This document shows positions 10,617 to 21,023 of a DNA stretch of 47,298 nucleotides, in pieces. The notes beneath the pieces were generated by a model. It was given only the letters and a program-made list of their open reading frames with translations, was not told the origin of the DNA and searched no databases. Each line of letters begins with the position of its first letter. Positions within the stretch are counted from its first letter, which is position 1. Location: the NCBI GenBank assembly GCA_026991755.1, contig JALXAX010000142.1, positions 1-47,298 on the forward strand. Reading direction: 5' to 3'. Both the position numbers and the translations under genes were made by a program. Source of the stretch: Thiotrichaceae bacterium. GTDB lineage: Bacteria; Pseudomonadota; Gammaproteobacteria; Thiotrichales; Thiotrichaceae.

Positions 10617-11756
10617 ATGAGAAAAAGCTACGCTGCACATCCAGAACAATCAAGGGGGCGACGATTTAAAGAGTCGGCACCTACTTATCGTAGTGAATAT
10701 CAGCGTGATCGTGATCGAATTATTCATTCCACAGGTTTTCGCCGTTTAGAATACAAAACTCAAGTGTTTGTTAATCACGAAGGTGATTTATACCGTACGA
10801 GGCTGACGCATTCTCTGGAAGTCGCACAAATAGCACGAGCGATTGCCAGAACAATGGGGCTGGATGAAGATTTAACAGAAGCTATTTCACTTGCTCATGA
10901 TCTTGGCCATACGCCTTTCGGCCATGCGGGTCAGGATGCACTCAATGCTTGTAATAAAAAGTTTGGCGGGTTTGAACACAATTTGCAGTCGTTACGAGTG
11001 GTTGATTGGTTAGAATCTAGTTACGCTGACTTTCAGGGGTTAAACCTAACCTTTGAAGCGCGCGAAGGCATCTTAAAGCATTGCAACTTGAAACATGCCG
11101 AAGCATTAGGTGATGTAGGTGAGCGGTTTATCAATAAAACGCAACCTTCTTTAGAAGCGCAGCTAACCAATTTTGCGGATGAGATTGCTTACAATAATCA
11201 TGATATTGATGATGGTTTGCGGTCGGGTTTGATCCGTATTGAAGATATGCGTGAAGAGGTCGAGCTATTTGCTGAATCCTATGATCAAGTGATGTGGAAA
11301 TATCCAAGCCTAACAGGGCGTAAGGCCATACATGAGACTATTCGACGGATTATTGGTATGTTGGTTGTTGATCTTACCGAAACCAGTGAACAAGCTATCG
11401 AATCGTCTGGAGTAAGTACTATTGATGATGTCCGAATGCAGCCACAAGCGCTTATTGGTTTTAGTGAGTCTCTTCAAAAAAGCAATCGTCAGCTGAAGCG
11501 CTTTCTGCGTGAAAACTTATATTATCATCATAAAGTGTACCGCATGACCCGCAAGGCACAGCTAGTTATAGAGGGTTTATACAATGCTTTTTTGGATGAC
11601 CTCAAGTTATTACCACCAGAACACCAAGCTTTGGCAAAAGCCTATCACAAAGAAAAAGGTGAAACGGGTAAAGCATTAGCGGTCATTGATTATATTGCAG
11701 GAATGACAGATCGATACGCTAGAGCGGAATTTAAACGCTTATATGAGATTAATTGA
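10617..11756 (+). CDS. dGTPase-like HD-domain dNTP triphosphohydrolase
   Basis: Predicted to hydrolyse dNTPs to deoxynucleosides and triphosphate, as in the dGTPase-like protein family. The short (379-residue) type is distinct from the ~505-residue E. coli Dgt. HD metal-binding residues are visible as RLTHSLEVAQIARAIAR (His65) and LAHDLGHTPFGHAG (His94, Asp95). A further Asp lies in ADEIAYNNHDIDDGLRSG (about 197-214), and GFRRLEYKTQVF (40-51) is the usual N-terminal signature. It starts 14 nt after aroB. Linkage to aroB is common in proteobacteria. Its substrate preference cannot be read from the sequence. Confidence 0.9.
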   Translation: MRKSYAAHPEQSRGRRFKESAPTYRSEYQRDRDRIIHSTGFRRLEYKTQVFVNHEGDLYRTRLTHSLEVAQIARAIARTMGLDEDLTEAISLAHDLGHTPFGHAGQDALNACNKKFGGFEHNLQSLRVVDWLESSYADFQGLNLTFEAREGILKHCNLKHAEALGDVGERFINKTQPSLEAQLTNFADEIAYNNHDIDDGLRSGLIRIEDMREEVELFAESYDQVMWKYPSLTGRKAIHETIRRIIGMLVVDLTETSEQAIESSGVSTIDDVRMQPQALIGFSESLQKSNRQLKRFLRENLYYHHKVYRMTRKAQLVIEGLYNAFLDDLKLLPPEHQALAKAYHKEKGETGKALAVIDYIAGMTDRYARAEFKRLYEIN

Positions 11757-11859: not shown

Positions 11860-12302
11860 TACATCAACCAGGTTGAAGTTCTTATTTAAGCCTTTTTAGT
11901 TGTATTTTGATCGGCTAAGACATAAGAAAATTTAATTGTTTCAATAGTCTGCATTTACATGAAGGGAGGTGTCTGTTACAATACCTAGCAACTTTGCTGT
12001 TCTTGCGACATATTAGTGTCTATAAGCCTATTTTAACAAATATTAGCTTTCTGTTTTTCGCAATAGCAAAGTTCTCATGGTGGGCGCATGATGCTAAGAA
12101 ATAGAGTTTCACTCTACTTACTTCAAAATAACTGTTCAATTCTTCCTGATAGGTCAACCTATTCGCTATTTTAGGCTATTTGCTTATTATTTAGTTTGAT
12201 GTTGCTTGAAATCAGATAGAACATTATTCATAGGCTACACTTTTAAAACAAACGATGAGACTTTTGCATGGGTCTCACTATAAAATACATAAGGGATCTG
12301 TT
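11860..12302. other. Gene-free upstream region of the DUF1538 operon
   Basis: About 440 nt with no credible gene. It contains a long imperfect inverted repeat: AACTTTGCT + TTGCGA (11990-12008) against TCGCAA + AGCAAAGTT (12058-12073), enclosing about 50 nt. It also contains a collapsed element palindrome (12257-12276) and an AAGGGA ribosome binding site (12291-12296). The operon promoter should be here. The hairpin could be a leader structure or element debris. Confidence 0.5.
12257..12276. mobile_element. Collapsed terminus-to-terminus remnant of the GAGACC element family
   Basis: GAGACTTTTGCATGGGTCTC is an imperfect palindrome made of a left GAGACCTTTGCA-like terminus joined to a right terminus with no interior. 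It resembles 26403-26426 and the ends of the elements at 19568, 25368 and 32758. It lies 26 nt before the preferred DUF1538 start and creates a misleading in-frame ATG at 12255. Confidence 0.6.
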
Positions 12303-13037
12303 GTGTTGCTGGGCCTCAAAGCTTTATTCCAATCTATGTTAGGAAGCGTGCGTGACTTGCTGCCTATCATTCTGGTTATCGCATTTTTTCAAATTTTTGT
12401 CATAAAACAACCTGTGCCTGATTTAGTCGGTCTGATTACGGGTGTCTTTTTAGTTATTCTGGGGCTTACCTTTTTTATCTATGGTCTGGAAATGGGATTA
12501 TTCCCGATTGGGGAAAGCATGGCGCAAGCTTTTGCTAAGAAAGGTAGTGTTTTTTGGTTGCTGTTATTTGCATTTGCATTGGGTTTTGGTACCACAATAG
12601 CAGAACCTGCATTAATAGCGGTTGCTGATGAAGCGGCACAAATAGCCGCAGATGGAAAAATAATCCTGGCAACAAAAGAAGCAGAAGAGAGTTACTCGCT
12701 GGGCTTACGAGTGACTGTTGCTTTTTCGGTGGGAGCCGCTATTGTGCTGGGTGTTTTGCGTATTCTAAAAGGCTGGCCGCTACATTACATCATCATAGCG
12801 GGCTACGTCATGGTCGTTTCGATGACTTTCTTTGCACCTGATTTTATAATAGGCATAGCCTATGACTCGGGGGGAGTTACGACTTCAACCATTACGGTTC
12901 CTCTTGTGACCGCTTTAGGCGTAGGCTTGGCCTCCAATATAAAAGGGCGTAATCCAATGGTTGATGGTTTTGGATTAATAGCATTTGCTTCATTATTGCC
13001 CATTATCTTTGTAATGATGTACGGGATGGTGATCTGA
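12303..13037 (+). CDS. DUF1538 integral membrane protein A (predicted transporter subunit)
   Basis: A polytopic membrane protein of 244 residues with about six to seven hydrophobic segments. Two polar, Gly/Thr-rich motifs lie inside membrane regions: [11 protein letters not shown] (94-104) and [17 protein letters not shown] (186-202). Both are repeated almost exactly in the next gene, so the two proteins are paralogues and probably form a heteromer. DUF1538 has no established biochemical function that I know of; broken, polar intramembrane helices suggest ion or solute transport (inference). Start: GTG 12303, 6 nt after AAGGGA. An earlier in-frame ATG at 12255 lies in element debris and would add an unlikely basic tail. 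The stop overlaps the next start (TGATG). Confidence 0.85.
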
Positions 13038-13927
13038 TGTTGGATTGGCTTCTAGAGTTCTTACAAGCGTTTACAGGCACTTTACGAGATGTTTTACCTA
13101 TTGCTGTGGTTTTATTTGGTTTTCAGTATTTAGTGATTCGTAAACCCTTACCTAATTTTCGTAAGGTAGTCATCGGATTTTTCTATGTATTACTGGGGCT
13201 TACTTTTTTCTTGCAAGGCTTAGATCAGGCATTATTTCCCCTTGGTCGGTTAATGGCAGAACAATTAACTGATCCATCGTTTATTTATCAGGGTCTGTCC
13301 GAAATTCCTAACATTGTGCATTGGTCTGATTACTATTGGGTGCTAGTGTTTGCATTTGCTATCGGTTTTAGTACCACTATTGCTGAGCCCTCATTAATGG
13401 CCGTTGCTATCAAAGCCTCACAGGTTTCGGGTGGTGCTGTTAGTATTTGGGGGTTACGGATAGCCGTTGCGATAGGTGTCGCAGTAGGTATCTCGTTAGG
13501 AGCCTGGCGAATCATTACAGGCTACCCTCTGCACTATTTTATTGCGGCAGGATATGCGATTGTAGTCATTCAAACCCTTGTATCATCAAAAATGATTATT
13601 GCTTTAGCGTATGATTCAGGGGGTGTAACCACTTCCACCGTAACCGTACCGCTTGTAGCGGCATTGGGTTTAGGCTTAGCAGAGAAAGTACCAGGTCGTA
13701 ATGTACTATTGGATGGCTTTGGCTTAATTGCTTTTGCGAGTCTGTTCCCTATCATGAGTGTTTTGGCTTATGCGAAACTATCAGAATATAAAGCTCGACG
13801 TGTCTTAAAGGATCAGGACGAGCAAAGTGAGAACGTCGATAAAAAAGAAAAGTCTAACAATGAGCCCAACAGTGATGATGACGAGATAGCACTTAGTAAG
13901 GTTAGGAGAGAAACACATGCACTTTAA
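13037..13927 (+). CDS. DUF1538 integral membrane protein B (predicted transporter subunit)
   Basis: Paralogue of the preceding protein, 296 residues. It repeats the same intramembrane motifs, GFSTTIAEPSL (110-120) and [17 protein letters not shown] (191-207), and the LGLTFF-GL--LFP block near 53-67. Unlike protein A it has a charged cytoplasmic tail (about 250-296) rich in Lys, Glu and Asp, a plausible docking site for the soluble partners encoded next. In many bacteria, as I recall, two DUF1538 units are fused in one chain; here they are split. The start overlaps the previous stop by 1 nt, and the gene end overlaps the PII-like start by 11 nt. Confidence 0.85.
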   Translation: MLDWLLEFLQAFTGTLRDVLPIAVVLFGFQYLVIRKPLPNFRKVVIGFFYVLLGLTFFLQGLDQALFPLGRLMAEQLTDPSFIYQGLSEIPNIVHWSDYYWVLVFAFAIGFSTTIAEPSLMAVAIKASQVSGGAVSIWGLRIAVAIGVAVGISLGAWRIITGYPLHYFIAAGYAIVVIQTLVSSKMIIALAYDSGGVTTSTVTVPLVAALGLGLAEKVPGRNVLLDGFGLIAFASLFPIMSVLAYAKLSEYKARRVLKDQDEQSENVDKKEKSNNEPNSDDDEIALSKVRRETHAL

Positions 13928-14267
13928 ATTATTAATTGCCTTTGTGAATGATGAAAAAACAGATGTTGTTATCGATGCCGCTAAAGAAGCGGGGGCAACA
14001 GGAGCAACTATTATTAGTAACGCTCGTGGTGAAGGTATTAAAGAAGCAACCACTTTCTTCGGCCTGCAACTAGACACCGCTAGAGATATGATATTGCTTC
14101 TGGTTGAAAAGCATTTGAGCCGTGAAGTATTGGAAGTGATAGAATCTGTAGCTGAGTTTGATACTTCAAGTGGTGCAGGTATCGCCTTTCAAATTGATGT
14201 GGAAGATGCGGTTGGAGTAACCAAACAAATTGAGGTTATATCTGAAGTTATTGAGGAAAAGCTATGA
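13917..14267 (+). CDS. PII-like (P-II family) signalling protein
   Basis: A 116-residue trimeric-type ferredoxin-like protein. The beta1-alpha1-beta2 region (HFKLLIAFVNDE, then AAKEAGATGATIISNARGEG) and a B-loop-like TSSGAGIAFQIDVEDAVGV near 83-101 match the PII fold and its nucleotide-binding loop. The classical GlnB/GlnK T-loop with uridylylated Tyr51 is absent; GEGIKEATTFFGL replaces it. It is therefore a PII-like protein rather than a nitrogen PII. PII-like proteins typically bind adenine nucleotides and gate a linked transporter (known for SbtB with SbtA and GlnK with AmtB). Regulation of the DUF1538 pair is inferred from the overlapping genes. An AGGAG site lies at about 13904-13908. 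Confidence 0.85.
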   Translation: MHFKLLIAFVNDEKTDVVIDAAKEAGATGATIISNARGEGIKEATTFFGLQLDTARDMILLLVEKHLSREVLEVIESVAEFDTSSGAGIAFQIDVEDAVGVTKQIEVISEVIEEKL

Positions 14268-14680
14268 GTAAAATCATGCGAGTAAGAGATGTCATGAACA
14301 CTGAAGTTAAGAGGGTGAATGGCAAGGATACATTGCAAGATGGTTTGAAAAAAATGAGTGCCTGTTGCTCACGTGTGTTAATTGTCAACAAACGACATGA
14401 TGATGATGAATACGGAATCGTTTGCATGGCAGATATTGCTAAAAAAGTGATTGCTCATGATAAAAGCCCCGAACGAATCAATATTTACGAAGTGATGTCT
14501 AAACCTGCTGTTTGCGTAAAAGATAGTATGGATATTCGTTATTGTGCCAGATTATTTCGTCAGTTTGGTCTGCACTCTGCTCCCGTTAGCAATGAAGAGG
14601 GGGAAATAATTGGCATAGTGGGTTATGACGATATGGTTTTTAAGGGTTTGATGAAAGATATCACTGAAGCAGATCTCTAA
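14264..14680 (+). CDS. Two-CBS-domain protein
   Basis: A small soluble protein (138 residues) consisting only of a CBS pair. CBS1 starts with RVRDVMNTEVKRVNG and CBS2 with IYEVMSKPAVCVKDS, each followed by the expected GIVCMADIAKK or GIVGYDDMVFK strand. Bateman modules of this kind usually bind AMP, ATP or other adenosyl ligands. The ATG overlaps the PII-like stop (ATGA), making a four-gene, translationally coupled unit. It has four Cys residues (two adjacent, near 33-34), more than usual, so a redox or metal effect is possible but unproven. Confidence 0.88.
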   Translation: MSKIMRVRDVMNTEVKRVNGKDTLQDGLKKMSACCSRVLIVNKRHDDDEYGIVCMADIAKKVIAHDKSPERINIYEVMSKPAVCVKDSMDIRYCARLFRQFGLHSAPVSNEEGEIIGIVGYDDMVFKGLMKDITEADL

Positions 14681-15631: not shown

Positions 15632-16123
15632 TCATTGAGTCGTTGTTGCTACATTCGAAGCAACTGCTTGTGATGATGGAATTAGTGCGGTGCCATAGGC
15701 TAATACTTCAACAGAGCCAATACTCTTACCAGAGCCTTTGAAAATAGAAACGGTCTCATATTTGACGTTTAGAACAAGAGCCGCATGCTTTTCCTTAGCC
15801 ATTTCCTTCATGCGCAGTAGTGCTTCGCGTCGTGAGCGATCCAGTAATGTCTCATAAGAGGTGATAGGCCCGCCGAAGAACGCATGTAATAGAGCAAGAA
15901 AGCGTTTAAAATAATCGACGGATATGGTTACATTACCCATCACTAATTCATGTTGAAAATGACCTTTAGGAGCTGTTTTGAGATTAACTGCGGGCAAGCT
16001 GTTAAGGGCATGCTCCCTTTTTATAATGGATTGATAATGTCGTTTCTCACGATAACTACCGATCAAATAGGCAACAATAAGCAAACCAATAACATAAATA
16101 AGCTGGAAAGATCCCCCGCTCAT
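15632..16123 (-). CDS. Membrane-tethered YbjQ/DUF74-type protein
   Basis: 163 residues: an N-terminal membrane helix (about 7-25) followed by a YbjQ-like domain with FFGGPITSYETLLDRSRREA (about 88-107) and a long helix, then AALVLNVKYETVSI. YbjQ proteins form pentameric rings and are often annotated as heavy-metal-binding, although evidence for metal binding is weak. The start overlaps the stop of the soluble YbjQ gene (ATGA). The pairing of one anchored and one soluble YbjQ suggests a membrane-associated hetero-oligomer (inference). Confidence 0.8.
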   Translation of the reverse strand: MSGGSFQLIYVIGLLIVAYLIGSYREKRHYQSIIKREHALNSLPAVNLKTAPKGHFQHELVMGNVTISVDYFKRFLALLHAFFGGPITSYETLLDRSRREALLRMKEMAKEKHAALVLNVKYETVSIFKGSGKSIGSVEVLAYGTALIPSSQAVASNVATTTQ

Positions 16124-16443
16124 TCTGTGGCTTCCAATTGCACCGCTGTGCCATAAACGTAAATTTCTGCTGCGCCTTGAGTAATACTAGAAGTAGAAAA
16201 GCGTACATTTAAAATAGCATTGGCTTCTACTGACTTCGCTTGCTGGAGCATTCTGTCCATTGCCTCTTCACGGGACTCTTGCAGTAACTCGGTATAGCTG
16301 GTCAACTCCCCTCCAAATAAGTTTTTGATGGAAGACAAAAGGTCACGACCTGCATGTTTAGCCCGAACTGAGCTGCCTTGTACCAATCCAAGATGTTTTA
16401 CAATTTTCTTACCAGGCATGCTTTCTAAATTAGTTATATCCAT
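16120..16443 (-). CDS. Soluble YbjQ/DUF74-type protein
   Basis: A 107-residue YbjQ family protein. It has the signature LFGGELTSYTELLQESREEA (about 62-81), a long amphipathic helix and ANAILNVRFSTSSI near 95, then the closing AAEIYVYGTAV strand. No signal peptide. It is the third-last gene of the minus-strand set and overlaps the membrane YbjQ gene by 4 nt. The function is unknown; oligomeric ring formation is known from structures of the family. Confidence 0.85.
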   Translation of the reverse strand: MDITNLESMPGKKIVKHLGLVQGSSVRAKHAGRDLLSSIKNLFGGELTSYTELLQESREEAMDRMLQQAKSVEANAILNVRFSTSSITQGAAEIYVYGTAVQLEATE

Positions 16444-19992: not shown

Positions 19993-20132
19993 ATTATATC
20001 CATTATGAACCCACAGAATAACAAGCGGAAGGTGGAATAATTAGAGAAAATCGGTAGAATGTCTGCATTTGCTACATGTTGTCTGCGACAGTCGTAGCTC
20101 ATATTTATTTTATTTCTCTCAAGGAGCTCATT

Positions 20133-21023
20133 ATGTCTAAACAACACCCGATTGTTGTTGTTACAGGTTCGTCTGGTGCTGGAACTACGTTTGTAAAACG
20201 TGCATTTGAAAACATCTTCCGTCGTGAAGGTATCAATCCTGCTATTATCGAAGGCGATAGCTTCCATAGCCTTAGCCGTACTGAGTTTAAGGCTGAAGTA
20301 GAAAAAGCTGAAGCAGCTGGTAATAATAATTTCAGTCACTTTGGGCCAGAAGCCAATGATTTTGTTGCTCTTGAAAGCCTGTTCTCTGACTACGGAAAAA
20401 CAGGTTTAGGAAAGAAACGTTATTATTTACATAATGATGACGAGGCTGCTGAGCACAACACCCGCTTAGGTTGTGACAAAGCCTCTGGAGAGTTTACGCC
20501 GTGGGAAGATGTAGAAGCAGGAACTGATATCCTTTTCTATGAAGGTTTACACGGCATGGTACAAGGTGAAGGTTATGATGTTGCTTCACAAGTTGATTTA
20601 GGAGTAGGCGTTGTTCCTAGCGTAAACCTTGAGTGGATTCAGAAAATCCATCGCGATAATGCAGAGCGTGGATACTCAGAAGAAGCTATCGTTGATACGA
20701 TTATGCGTCGTATGCCTGATTATATGAATCACATTACGCCACAATTCTCACGTACGGATATTAACTTCCAGCGTGTACCAACAGTTGATACTTCAAACCC
20801 CTTTATTGCTCGCGATATTCCAACGGCTGATGAAAGCTTTGTAGTTATTCGTTTTAAAGATCCTGCTAAATGCAATGTGGATTTCCCGCATCTTCTTAAC
20901 ATGATTGGTGATTCATTTATGTCTCGTAGAAACACCATTGTTGTACCTGGTGGCAAGATGAGCATGGCTATGGAGATTATTCTTACTCCAATTATTCACA
21001 GAATGATTGAGAACAAAGGCTAA
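20133..21023 (+). CDS. prk: Phosphoribulokinase (proteobacterial type)
   Basis: Phosphorylates ribulose-5-phosphate to ribulose-1,5-bisphosphate with ATP, the committed step feeding Rubisco. A protein of 296 residues, the length of the octameric proteobacterial class. The P-loop GSSGAGTTF is at residues 12-20, EGDSFHSLSR follows near 41, and FYEGLHGM near 140 carries conserved PRK residues. Start ATG 20133 follows AAGGAG (20121-20126) with ideal spacing; a longer open frame from 20076 lacks support. No Rubisco or cbbR is adjacent, so it is a stand-alone CBB gene here. Its promoter probably lies between the element end (19992) and 20120, or within the element. Confidence 0.93.
   Translation: MSKQHPIVVVTGSSGAGTTFVKRAFENIFRREGINPAIIEGDSFHSLSRTEFKAEVEKAEAAGNNNFSHFGPEANDFVALESLFSDYGKTGLGKKRYYLHNDDEAAEHNTRLGCDKASGEFTPWEDVEAGTDILFYEGLHGMVQGEGYDVASQVDLGVGVVPSVNLEWIQKIHRDNAERGYSEEAIVDTIMRRMPDYMNHITPQFSRTDINFQRVPTVDTSNPFIARDIPTADESFVVIRFKDPAKCNVDFPHLLNMIGDSFMSRRNTIVVPGGKMSMAMEIILTPIIHRMIENKG

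Follow-up and report, generated by a model that had tools for sequence, protein, structure and literature searches.

We propose that a four-gene operon of a Thiotrichaceae bacterium encodes a cation/proton antiporter that is controlled by a PII-like protein. The operon lies at positions 12303-14680 of contig JALXAX010000142.1, of which we analyzed a stretch of 47,298 nucleotides (the window). It encodes two DUF1538 membrane proteins, which we will term UmpA and UmpB after the subunits that they resemble, as well as a PII-like protein and a stand-alone pair of CBS domains. In particular, we estimate a probability of roughly 0.58 that UmpA and UmpB form an antiparallel antiporter of monovalent cations and protons, of the UmpAB family, that is braked by the T-loop of the PII-like protein, with the CBS pair as an optional second sensor. 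We also favor, if only slightly, the idea that the PII-like protein represents a subtype of PII that is dedicated to the antiparallel two-gene antiporter across Pseudomonadota and Bacillota and that, having given up most of the classical site for MgATP and 2-oxoglutarate, reads another signal.

The linkage between DUF1538 and the PII-like protein is nearly obligate. We sampled 397 genomes evenly across the phylum (completeness of 90 or more). Of these, 88 genomes, or about a fifth, encode DUF1538, and we read one DUF1538 locus in each of the 88 (two in three genomes). A profile for the PII-like protein, which was built from alignment A3 (76 rows) and used with a threshold of E up to 1e-6, matches 98 of the 397 genomes: all 88 that encode DUF1538 and 10 of the 309 that do not. 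(Seven of these ten matches are weak, at E = 3.9e-10 or worse, and three are strong, in G084, G167, and G171.) The PII-like gene is in the same cluster as DUF1538 in 84 of the 88 genomes, and in 83 it is 3' of DUF1538, on the same strand, and within 200 nucleotides (overlaps included). G451 has the order PII-CBS-fused umpAB, with PII-CBS immediately upstream (L115:5023-7283). The initial annotation had linked the transporter to both soluble proteins, and a lack of conserved co-occurrence in other genomes would have refuted it. For the PII-like protein the co-occurrence is indeed conserved. For the CBS protein it is conserved only in part: a CBS gene directly follows the PII-like gene in 52 of the 88 genomes. 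Because it does not do so in the other 36, we view the CBS pair as an optional accessory, a putative second sensor that is seen with the single-PII versions of the locus.

Closer relatives show the same pattern. In a survey of the family, DUF1538 was found in 19 of 63 genomes (its own included), and the split umpA/umpB loci are followed by PII and then CBS in 12 of 13 cases (window included). The exception, L033, lies at a contig end, where umpA is missing, and the gene that follows umpB is a different one, not PII. Seven other loci of the family have a fused DUF1538 gene of about 600 amino acids (interrupted near its end in L039), and profile searches showed two PII-like genes, with no CBS gene, after each of these. 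More generally, no CBS gene was seen in loci with tandem PII genes. Among loci from named genomes, a PII-like gene is present in 76 of 80 and a CBS gene in 72 of 80. These are the best 80 of at least 593 confirmed stretches, from at least 594 matches, so this set leans toward close relatives; it also overlaps with the phylum sample (L148 and L043, for instance, denote one contig), and the counts are not independent. Three of the four named loci without PII (L183, L200, and L213) run into a contig edge or stop no more than 20 bases short of it, and the fourth (L189) has 666 bases past umpB. We also observed one genome with a split umpAB-PII set beside a fused umpAB-PII-PII set (L112:2441-7452).

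The linkage extends to plasmids and to another phylum. Nine plasmid records match UmpA at about 30%, and we examined seven of these loci, leaving out two that repeat a species. In all seven, which are from Alphaproteobacteria and Bacillota, DUF1538 is followed by a PII-like gene. In the five Bacillota loci, the DUF1538 gene is a fusion and the PII gene encodes two PII stretches, of which the first scores weakly in L237. As the fused, PII-doubled, and other-phylum loci all keep PII, the link outlasts fusion of the transporter, doubling of PII, and a change of phylum. As to the doubled PII itself, the two stretches lie in one chain in L237, L239, L241, L242, and L243, and the halves are unlike each other in L239 and L241, the two that were read, so a hetero-arranged oligomer may occur.

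What does the membrane pair transport? Both proteins match DUF1538 (PF07556), at 232.9 and 223.4 bits against a gathering cut-off of 22.6 (E = 3.1e-69 and 2.7e-66). The best NCBIfam model for UmpA is the UmpA antiporter subunit (NF041627, 384.7 bits; the equivalog cut-off of 490 is not reached) and the best model for UmpB is UmpB (NF041628, 338.7 bits; the equivalog cut-off of 500 is not reached). The UmpA cut-off is passed in none of 370 genomes of the class, so it is very narrow; it is also passed in none of 20 genomes of one order. These profile matches assign UmpA and UmpB to the UmpAB family of Na+(Li+,K+)/H+ antiporters. UmpAB of Halomonas zhaodongensis, which was cloned in E. coli KNabc and characterized in 2017, is described as a two-component Na+(Li+,K+)/H+ antiporter; co-immunoprecipitation indicated a heterodimer of UmpA and UmpB, and co-expression of umpA and umpB alone was enough for activity in E. 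coli (PMC5484666). The substrate, which the initial annotation had left blank, therefore has a precedent within the family, and we rejected the label of unknown function for DUF1538 in view of the NCBIfam models and the Halomonas antiporter. In a 2026 model of optimal growth pH, DUF1538 also ranks within the 20 leading Pfam features (PMC13255231).

The AlphaFold model of UmpA (predicted local distance difference test, or pLDDT, of 89.6) has nine helical segments, with breaks at residues 99-102 and 192-198, where the TTIAEP and GGVTTST motifs are found. The TTIAEP motif and the second motif are common to both membrane proteins, as had been noticed earlier. Glu101 and Asp188 are invariant in all 108 rows of alignment A2 and in all 15 rows of alignment A1, fused halves included. 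Cation/proton antiporters typically have broken helices with conserved acids, which is why we infer that the ion path runs by these two residues. Structure comparisons gave no convincing match: a Foldseek search of the PDB with the UmpA model found nothing at E of 0.001 or below (the best was 1.2), and VIA-align 2 on 544 of the Foldseek candidates reached at most Z = 5.8 over 65 residues. The absence of a match for this predicted model does not prove that the fold is new. A comparison of profiles for the two halves of UmpA did not support an internal repeat (probability 0.7%).

UmpA and UmpB are probably antiparallel in the membrane, because their loops have opposite charge biases. This feature was absent from the initial annotation. 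In an alignment of 58 UmpA and 50 UmpB rows, Lys plus Arg averaged 0.33 in UmpA versus 3.54 in UmpB for loop 1-2, 1.88 versus 0.16 for the N-terminus, and 0.03 versus 4.28 for the C-terminal tail. (Loops 4-5 and 6-7 are positive in both proteins, and less so in UmpB.) Among non-identical split pairs within length filters (31 of 204 loci were dropped as fragments, as duplicates, or for their length), the side-to-side difference in net charge has one sign throughout each protein: positive for all 146 UmpA and negative for all 146 UmpB. This opposite sign holds whatever the exact number of helices, since the loops being compared are homologous. Seven helices are given for UmpA and UmpB (PMC5484666), and the AlphaFold model of UmpA is compatible with seven. 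With an odd number of helices, a direct fusion of umpA to umpB would yield the same antiparallel arrangement. Indeed, the first and second halves of fusions of about 500 amino acids show the same opposite bias (7 of 7 each), and the first halves of fusions of about 600 amino acids agree as well (20 of 20). In a word search, the main text of the 2017 UmpAB paper contained no mention of topology or antiparallel (PMC5484666).

The PII-like protein matches P-II (PF00543) at 43.7 bits (cut-off 25, E = 3.6e-11). Its AlphaFold model (pLDDT of 80.1) has the ferredoxin-like PII fold and is matched by PII structures at a probability of 1.00 (Foldseek); the best matches are CPII and GlnK1, with E of about 1e-5. 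We compared the residues of 173 non-identical PII-like sequences (155 of the main type and 18 of the type next to the ~600-amino-acid fusion), with one canonical PII of the same genome as the guide. The glycines of the nucleotide cleft are kept: G27 and G35 in all 173 sequences, G37 in 170, G89 in 172, and G87 in 165. The position of K90 is hydrophobic in all 173; the position of R101 is Gly in all 155 sequences of the main type and Thr in all 18 of the other type; and the position of R103 is basic in just 9. (We take these three residues to be phosphate ligands in GlnB and GlnK, and Q39 and K58 to serve Mg and 2-oxoglutarate.) Q39 is kept in 13 sequences (6 of the main type and 7 of the other type), and K58 and Tyr51 are kept in none, with both columns lying in a gapped region. 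In the window, the residues at K90, R101, R103, Q39, K58, and Tyr51 are I89, G100, T102, K42, L61, and T54. Because K90 and R101 are lost in every sequence and R103 is non-basic in 164, the protein is, as far as its residues indicate, a member of the PII family and no GlnB/GlnK-type sensor. The same losses weaken the suggestion that the operon encodes two independent adenine-nucleotide sensors: both folds are present, but sensing of adenine nucleotides by the PII-like protein is put in doubt. From the titles of their structures, CPII and SbtB are PII-like proteins that do bind adenine nucleotides.

These residues also bear on the possibility that the transported ion is ammonium (or K+, with ammonium as its look-alike), with the PII-like protein keeping the old role in nitrogen control. 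The PII fold and the P-II match would fit, and K+ antiport has been reported for UmpAB (PMC5484666). This seems improbable given that the classical ligand residues are missing and that the genome has two further P-II proteins, of which one was aligned and is canonical.

The T-loop of the PII-like protein is short, and its tip is conserved: none of the 76 rows of A3 departs from F47, G49, or L52. This is so although the model has its lowest confidence at residues 40-43 and in the region around them. The T-loop motif [TS][FI][FL][GS][LIMV] is present in 151 of the 155 sequences of the main type and in none of the 18 of the other type, which have a motif of their own (18 of 18). A flexible loop with an invariant tip that varies with the type of transporter would fit a docking loop, but shared ancestry alone could produce the same pattern.

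The CBS protein matches CBS (PF00571) in two stretches, at 66.4 bits against a cut-off of 24 (E = 2.8e-18), and the best solved relative of its family profile is CBS-CP12 (PDB 5nmu, E = 8.5e-37). At what we take to be the first ribose-binding position, at least 90% of 62 rows have Asp57, but Ser or Thr three places before it is not the consensus.

Putting these data together, we propose the following mechanism. UmpA and UmpB, which are homologous and probably have seven helices each, would be inserted in opposite directions to give one antiparallel transport unit, and the Glu and the Asp at the two helix breaks of each subunit would probably carry H+ and Na+ or K+. The PII-like protein, presumably a trimer, would dock on the cytoplasmic face by the hydrophobic tip of its T-loop and, by analogy to GlnK-AmtB and SbtB-SbtA, would hold the antiporter closed. 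A change of small ligand in the PII cleft would then release the transporter. This ligand is unlikely to be the pair of MgATP and 2-oxoglutarate that is used by GlnB and GlnK. The CBS pair would be the optional second sensor. Such control would be useful to the cell, since a cation/proton antiporter that is left open dissipates the proton-motive force.

A second possibility is that the PII-like protein activates the same antiporter, or controls its assembly or lifetime, instead of acting as a brake. The linkage alone says nothing about the sign of control, and varied modes of transporter control have been described (PMC10710835). We nevertheless consider this doubtful because the Halomonas UmpAB is active in E. 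coli from its two genes alone (PMC5484666) and because the analogous proteins inhibit their targets: SbtB partially blocks the exit of SbtA (PMC8352866) and GlnK plugs AmtB (PMC10710835).

Third, the operon could encode a transporter of bicarbonate or other inorganic carbon in an autotroph, worked as SbtA is by a protein that resembles SbtB or CPII. The initial annotation had raised bicarbonate because of a prk gene, which is indeed present in the window (20076-21023), and the closest structural match, CPII, was solved with ADP, AMP, and bicarbonate or acetate. However, prk is about 5.4 kb from the operon, past oppositely oriented genes. Also, Vibrio and Colwellia commonly carry the operon and it is present in Clostridia, all of which are heterotrophs, and the characterized member of the family is a cation/proton antiporter (PMC5484666). 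This explanation is very unlikely.

Several observations weigh against our proposal or limit it. First, the complex of the PII-like protein with UmpAB is proposed from gene linkage and single-chain models, and we infer direct binding and inhibition largely by analogy. For one of the analogs, a report that SbtA functions in vivo independently of SbtB is cited in PMC8352866. Second, the substrate class of the pair is predicted and its exact ions are not assured, because the scores are under the NCBI equivalog cut-offs. Third, the charge bias is unclear for the second halves of the ~600-amino-acid fusions: of 20, 11 are opposite, 7 are zero, and 2 are the same. Fourth, the counts for linkage and for conservation of the T-loop are uncorrected for shared ancestry. 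Finally, the two genes are sometimes found apart. No PII gene was seen after umpB in L189 (666 nucleotides available) or in L033 (about 3.5 kb available). In G146, G151, G178, and G200, the PII-like gene is on a different contig than umpAB; in G146 and G178 (L257 and L258), PII-CBS directly follows a malic enzyme/phosphotransacetylase gene. Copies of the PII-like gene, either extra or sole, lie apart from umpAB in L244-L256 (G084, G096, G103, G107, G127, G135, G143, G151, G155, G159, G163, G167, and G171), and some of these orphans are near AA_kinase (argB-like) and dus genes.

The PII subtype may thus have other partners, for example in the malic-enzyme setting. The separated copies might even suggest that the PII-like and CBS genes accompany umpAB but that their products make no contact with the transporter and have their targets elsewhere, such as metabolic enzymes. 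This would account poorly for a linkage that persists through fusion, gene doubling, and a change of phylum, or for a T-loop type that changes with the type of transporter, and we view it as very unlikely.

The features of the operon are listed in Table 1. The initial annotation had described four overlapping open reading frames, and these are as claimed, with junctions of TGATG for umpA/umpB (one nucleotide shared), an 11-nucleotide overlap for umpB/PII, and ATGA for PII/CBS (four nucleotides shared). Among the best 80 named loci, 69 have the plain A-B-PII-CBS order, and the PII/CBS overlap of 4 nucleotides recurs in 63 of these, while an A/B overlap of 1 or 4 nucleotides is found in 54, so the overlaps are beyond chance. 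They suggest translational coupling rather than a measured ratio, and the claim that the proteins are made in fixed proportion was too strong. The start codon of umpA is GTG, with AAGGGA 5' of it; there is also an in-frame ATG at 12255, yet the starts of relatives are near 12303.

Table 1. Features of the operon and of its products, with positions in the window.
Feature	Positions	Strand	Details
Probable ribosome-binding site of umpA, AAGGGA	12291..12296	+	Read from the sequence
umpA-like gene, DUF1538 membrane protein	12303..13037	+	244 amino acids; predicted N-terminus in, C-terminus out
UmpA TTIAEP motif	12591..12608	+	Invariant Glu101; at a helix break of the model
UmpA second motif	12858..12902	+	Invariant Asp188; at the second helix break of the model
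umpB-like gene, DUF1538 membrane protein	13037..13927	+	296 amino acids, hydrophilic C-terminal tail; predicted N-terminus out, C-terminus in
UmpB TTIAEP motif	13373..13390	+	Glu117
UmpB second motif	13607..13651	+	Asp193
PII-like gene	13917..14267	+	116 amino acids
TFFGLQLD, conserved tip of the short PII T-loop	14052..14075	+	Low model confidence; candidate docking site for UmpAB
Stand-alone CBS pair gene	14264..14680	+	138 amino acids

Upstream of the operon is an HD-domain gene (dgt-like, 10617-11756), which ends 547 bases before umpA, and the genes downstream are of the opposite orientation. A promoter scan found 7 sites versus 8.9 in shuffled sequences, and a terminator scan found 1 site versus 2.1, so neither gave an excess. 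Elsewhere in the window, two adjoining and overlapping genes of the YbjQ family are found on the minus strand next to an M48 peptidase gene (15632-16443).

If the proposal is correct, then ion and pH homeostasis would be added to the tasks of PII proteins, across Pseudomonadota and Bacillota. A PII protein that so rarely parts from a cation/proton antiporter, in about one in five genomes of the phylum sample, would place PII signaling in the homeostasis of pH, Na+, and K+. The system is also compact and testable, with four small genes and an assay in E. coli KNabc already in place.

How does this operon compare with known systems? The Halomonas UmpAB is also encoded by two adjoining, overlapping DUF1538 genes (PMC5484666), and each of our proteins is best matched by its own Ump model, but our pair is below the equivalog cut-offs (384.7 of 490 bits and 338.7 of 500 bits). 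A word search of the main text of the 2017 paper found no P-II, PII, GlnB, CBS, or cystathionine (PMC5484666). As in GlnK-AmtB, a gene of the PII family is beside a transporter (PMC10710835), and the conserved tip of the T-loop is a likely plug. The differences are that the target would be from another transporter family, that the T-loop is shorter, and that K58, K90, R101, and Tyr51 are absent from all 173 sequences, Q39 from 160, and a basic R103 from 164. SbtB-SbtA is similar in that a PII-like protein is encoded with a secondary transporter, and a hydrophobic cleft of SbtA takes the T-loop (PMC8352866). However, SbtA carries bicarbonate, and our PII-like protein has no Cys and hence no C-terminal CGPxGC motif, which is conserved only in some SbtB (PMC8352866). 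The sequence similarity to SbtB is weak and partial (E = 0.18).

CPII of Thiomonas intermedia (PDB 5d4n and related) is the best Foldseek match to the PII-like model (E = 9.7e-06), but the identity is only 23-27% in the listed matches. CPII is a PII-like protein outside of classical nitrogen control and belongs to carboxysome regions. CBS-CP12, the best solved relative of the CBS protein, binds AMP; the CBS protein of the window lacks the CP12 tail. Finally, Fluc and EmrE/SMR are also described as transport units of oppositely inserted chains, but the DUF1538 proteins exceed them in size, and in this operon each orientation has a separate gene of its own.

A 2023 review lists ammonium, nitrate/nitrite, urea, and bicarbonate transporters as targets of PII (AmtB, Amt1, Nrt, Urt, and SbtA; PMC10710835). 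In the text of that review, DUF1538 and UmpA do not occur, and the two mentions of antiporters concern other control (PMC10710835). Public annotation does show a "P-II family nitrogen regulator" next to DUF1538, and we found no description of the link in the literature that we searched (open-licence papers, mostly as listings). Thus, the antiporter family was already known, and what appears to be undescribed is its link to PII, which would extend the PII-linked transporters to a new class of target.

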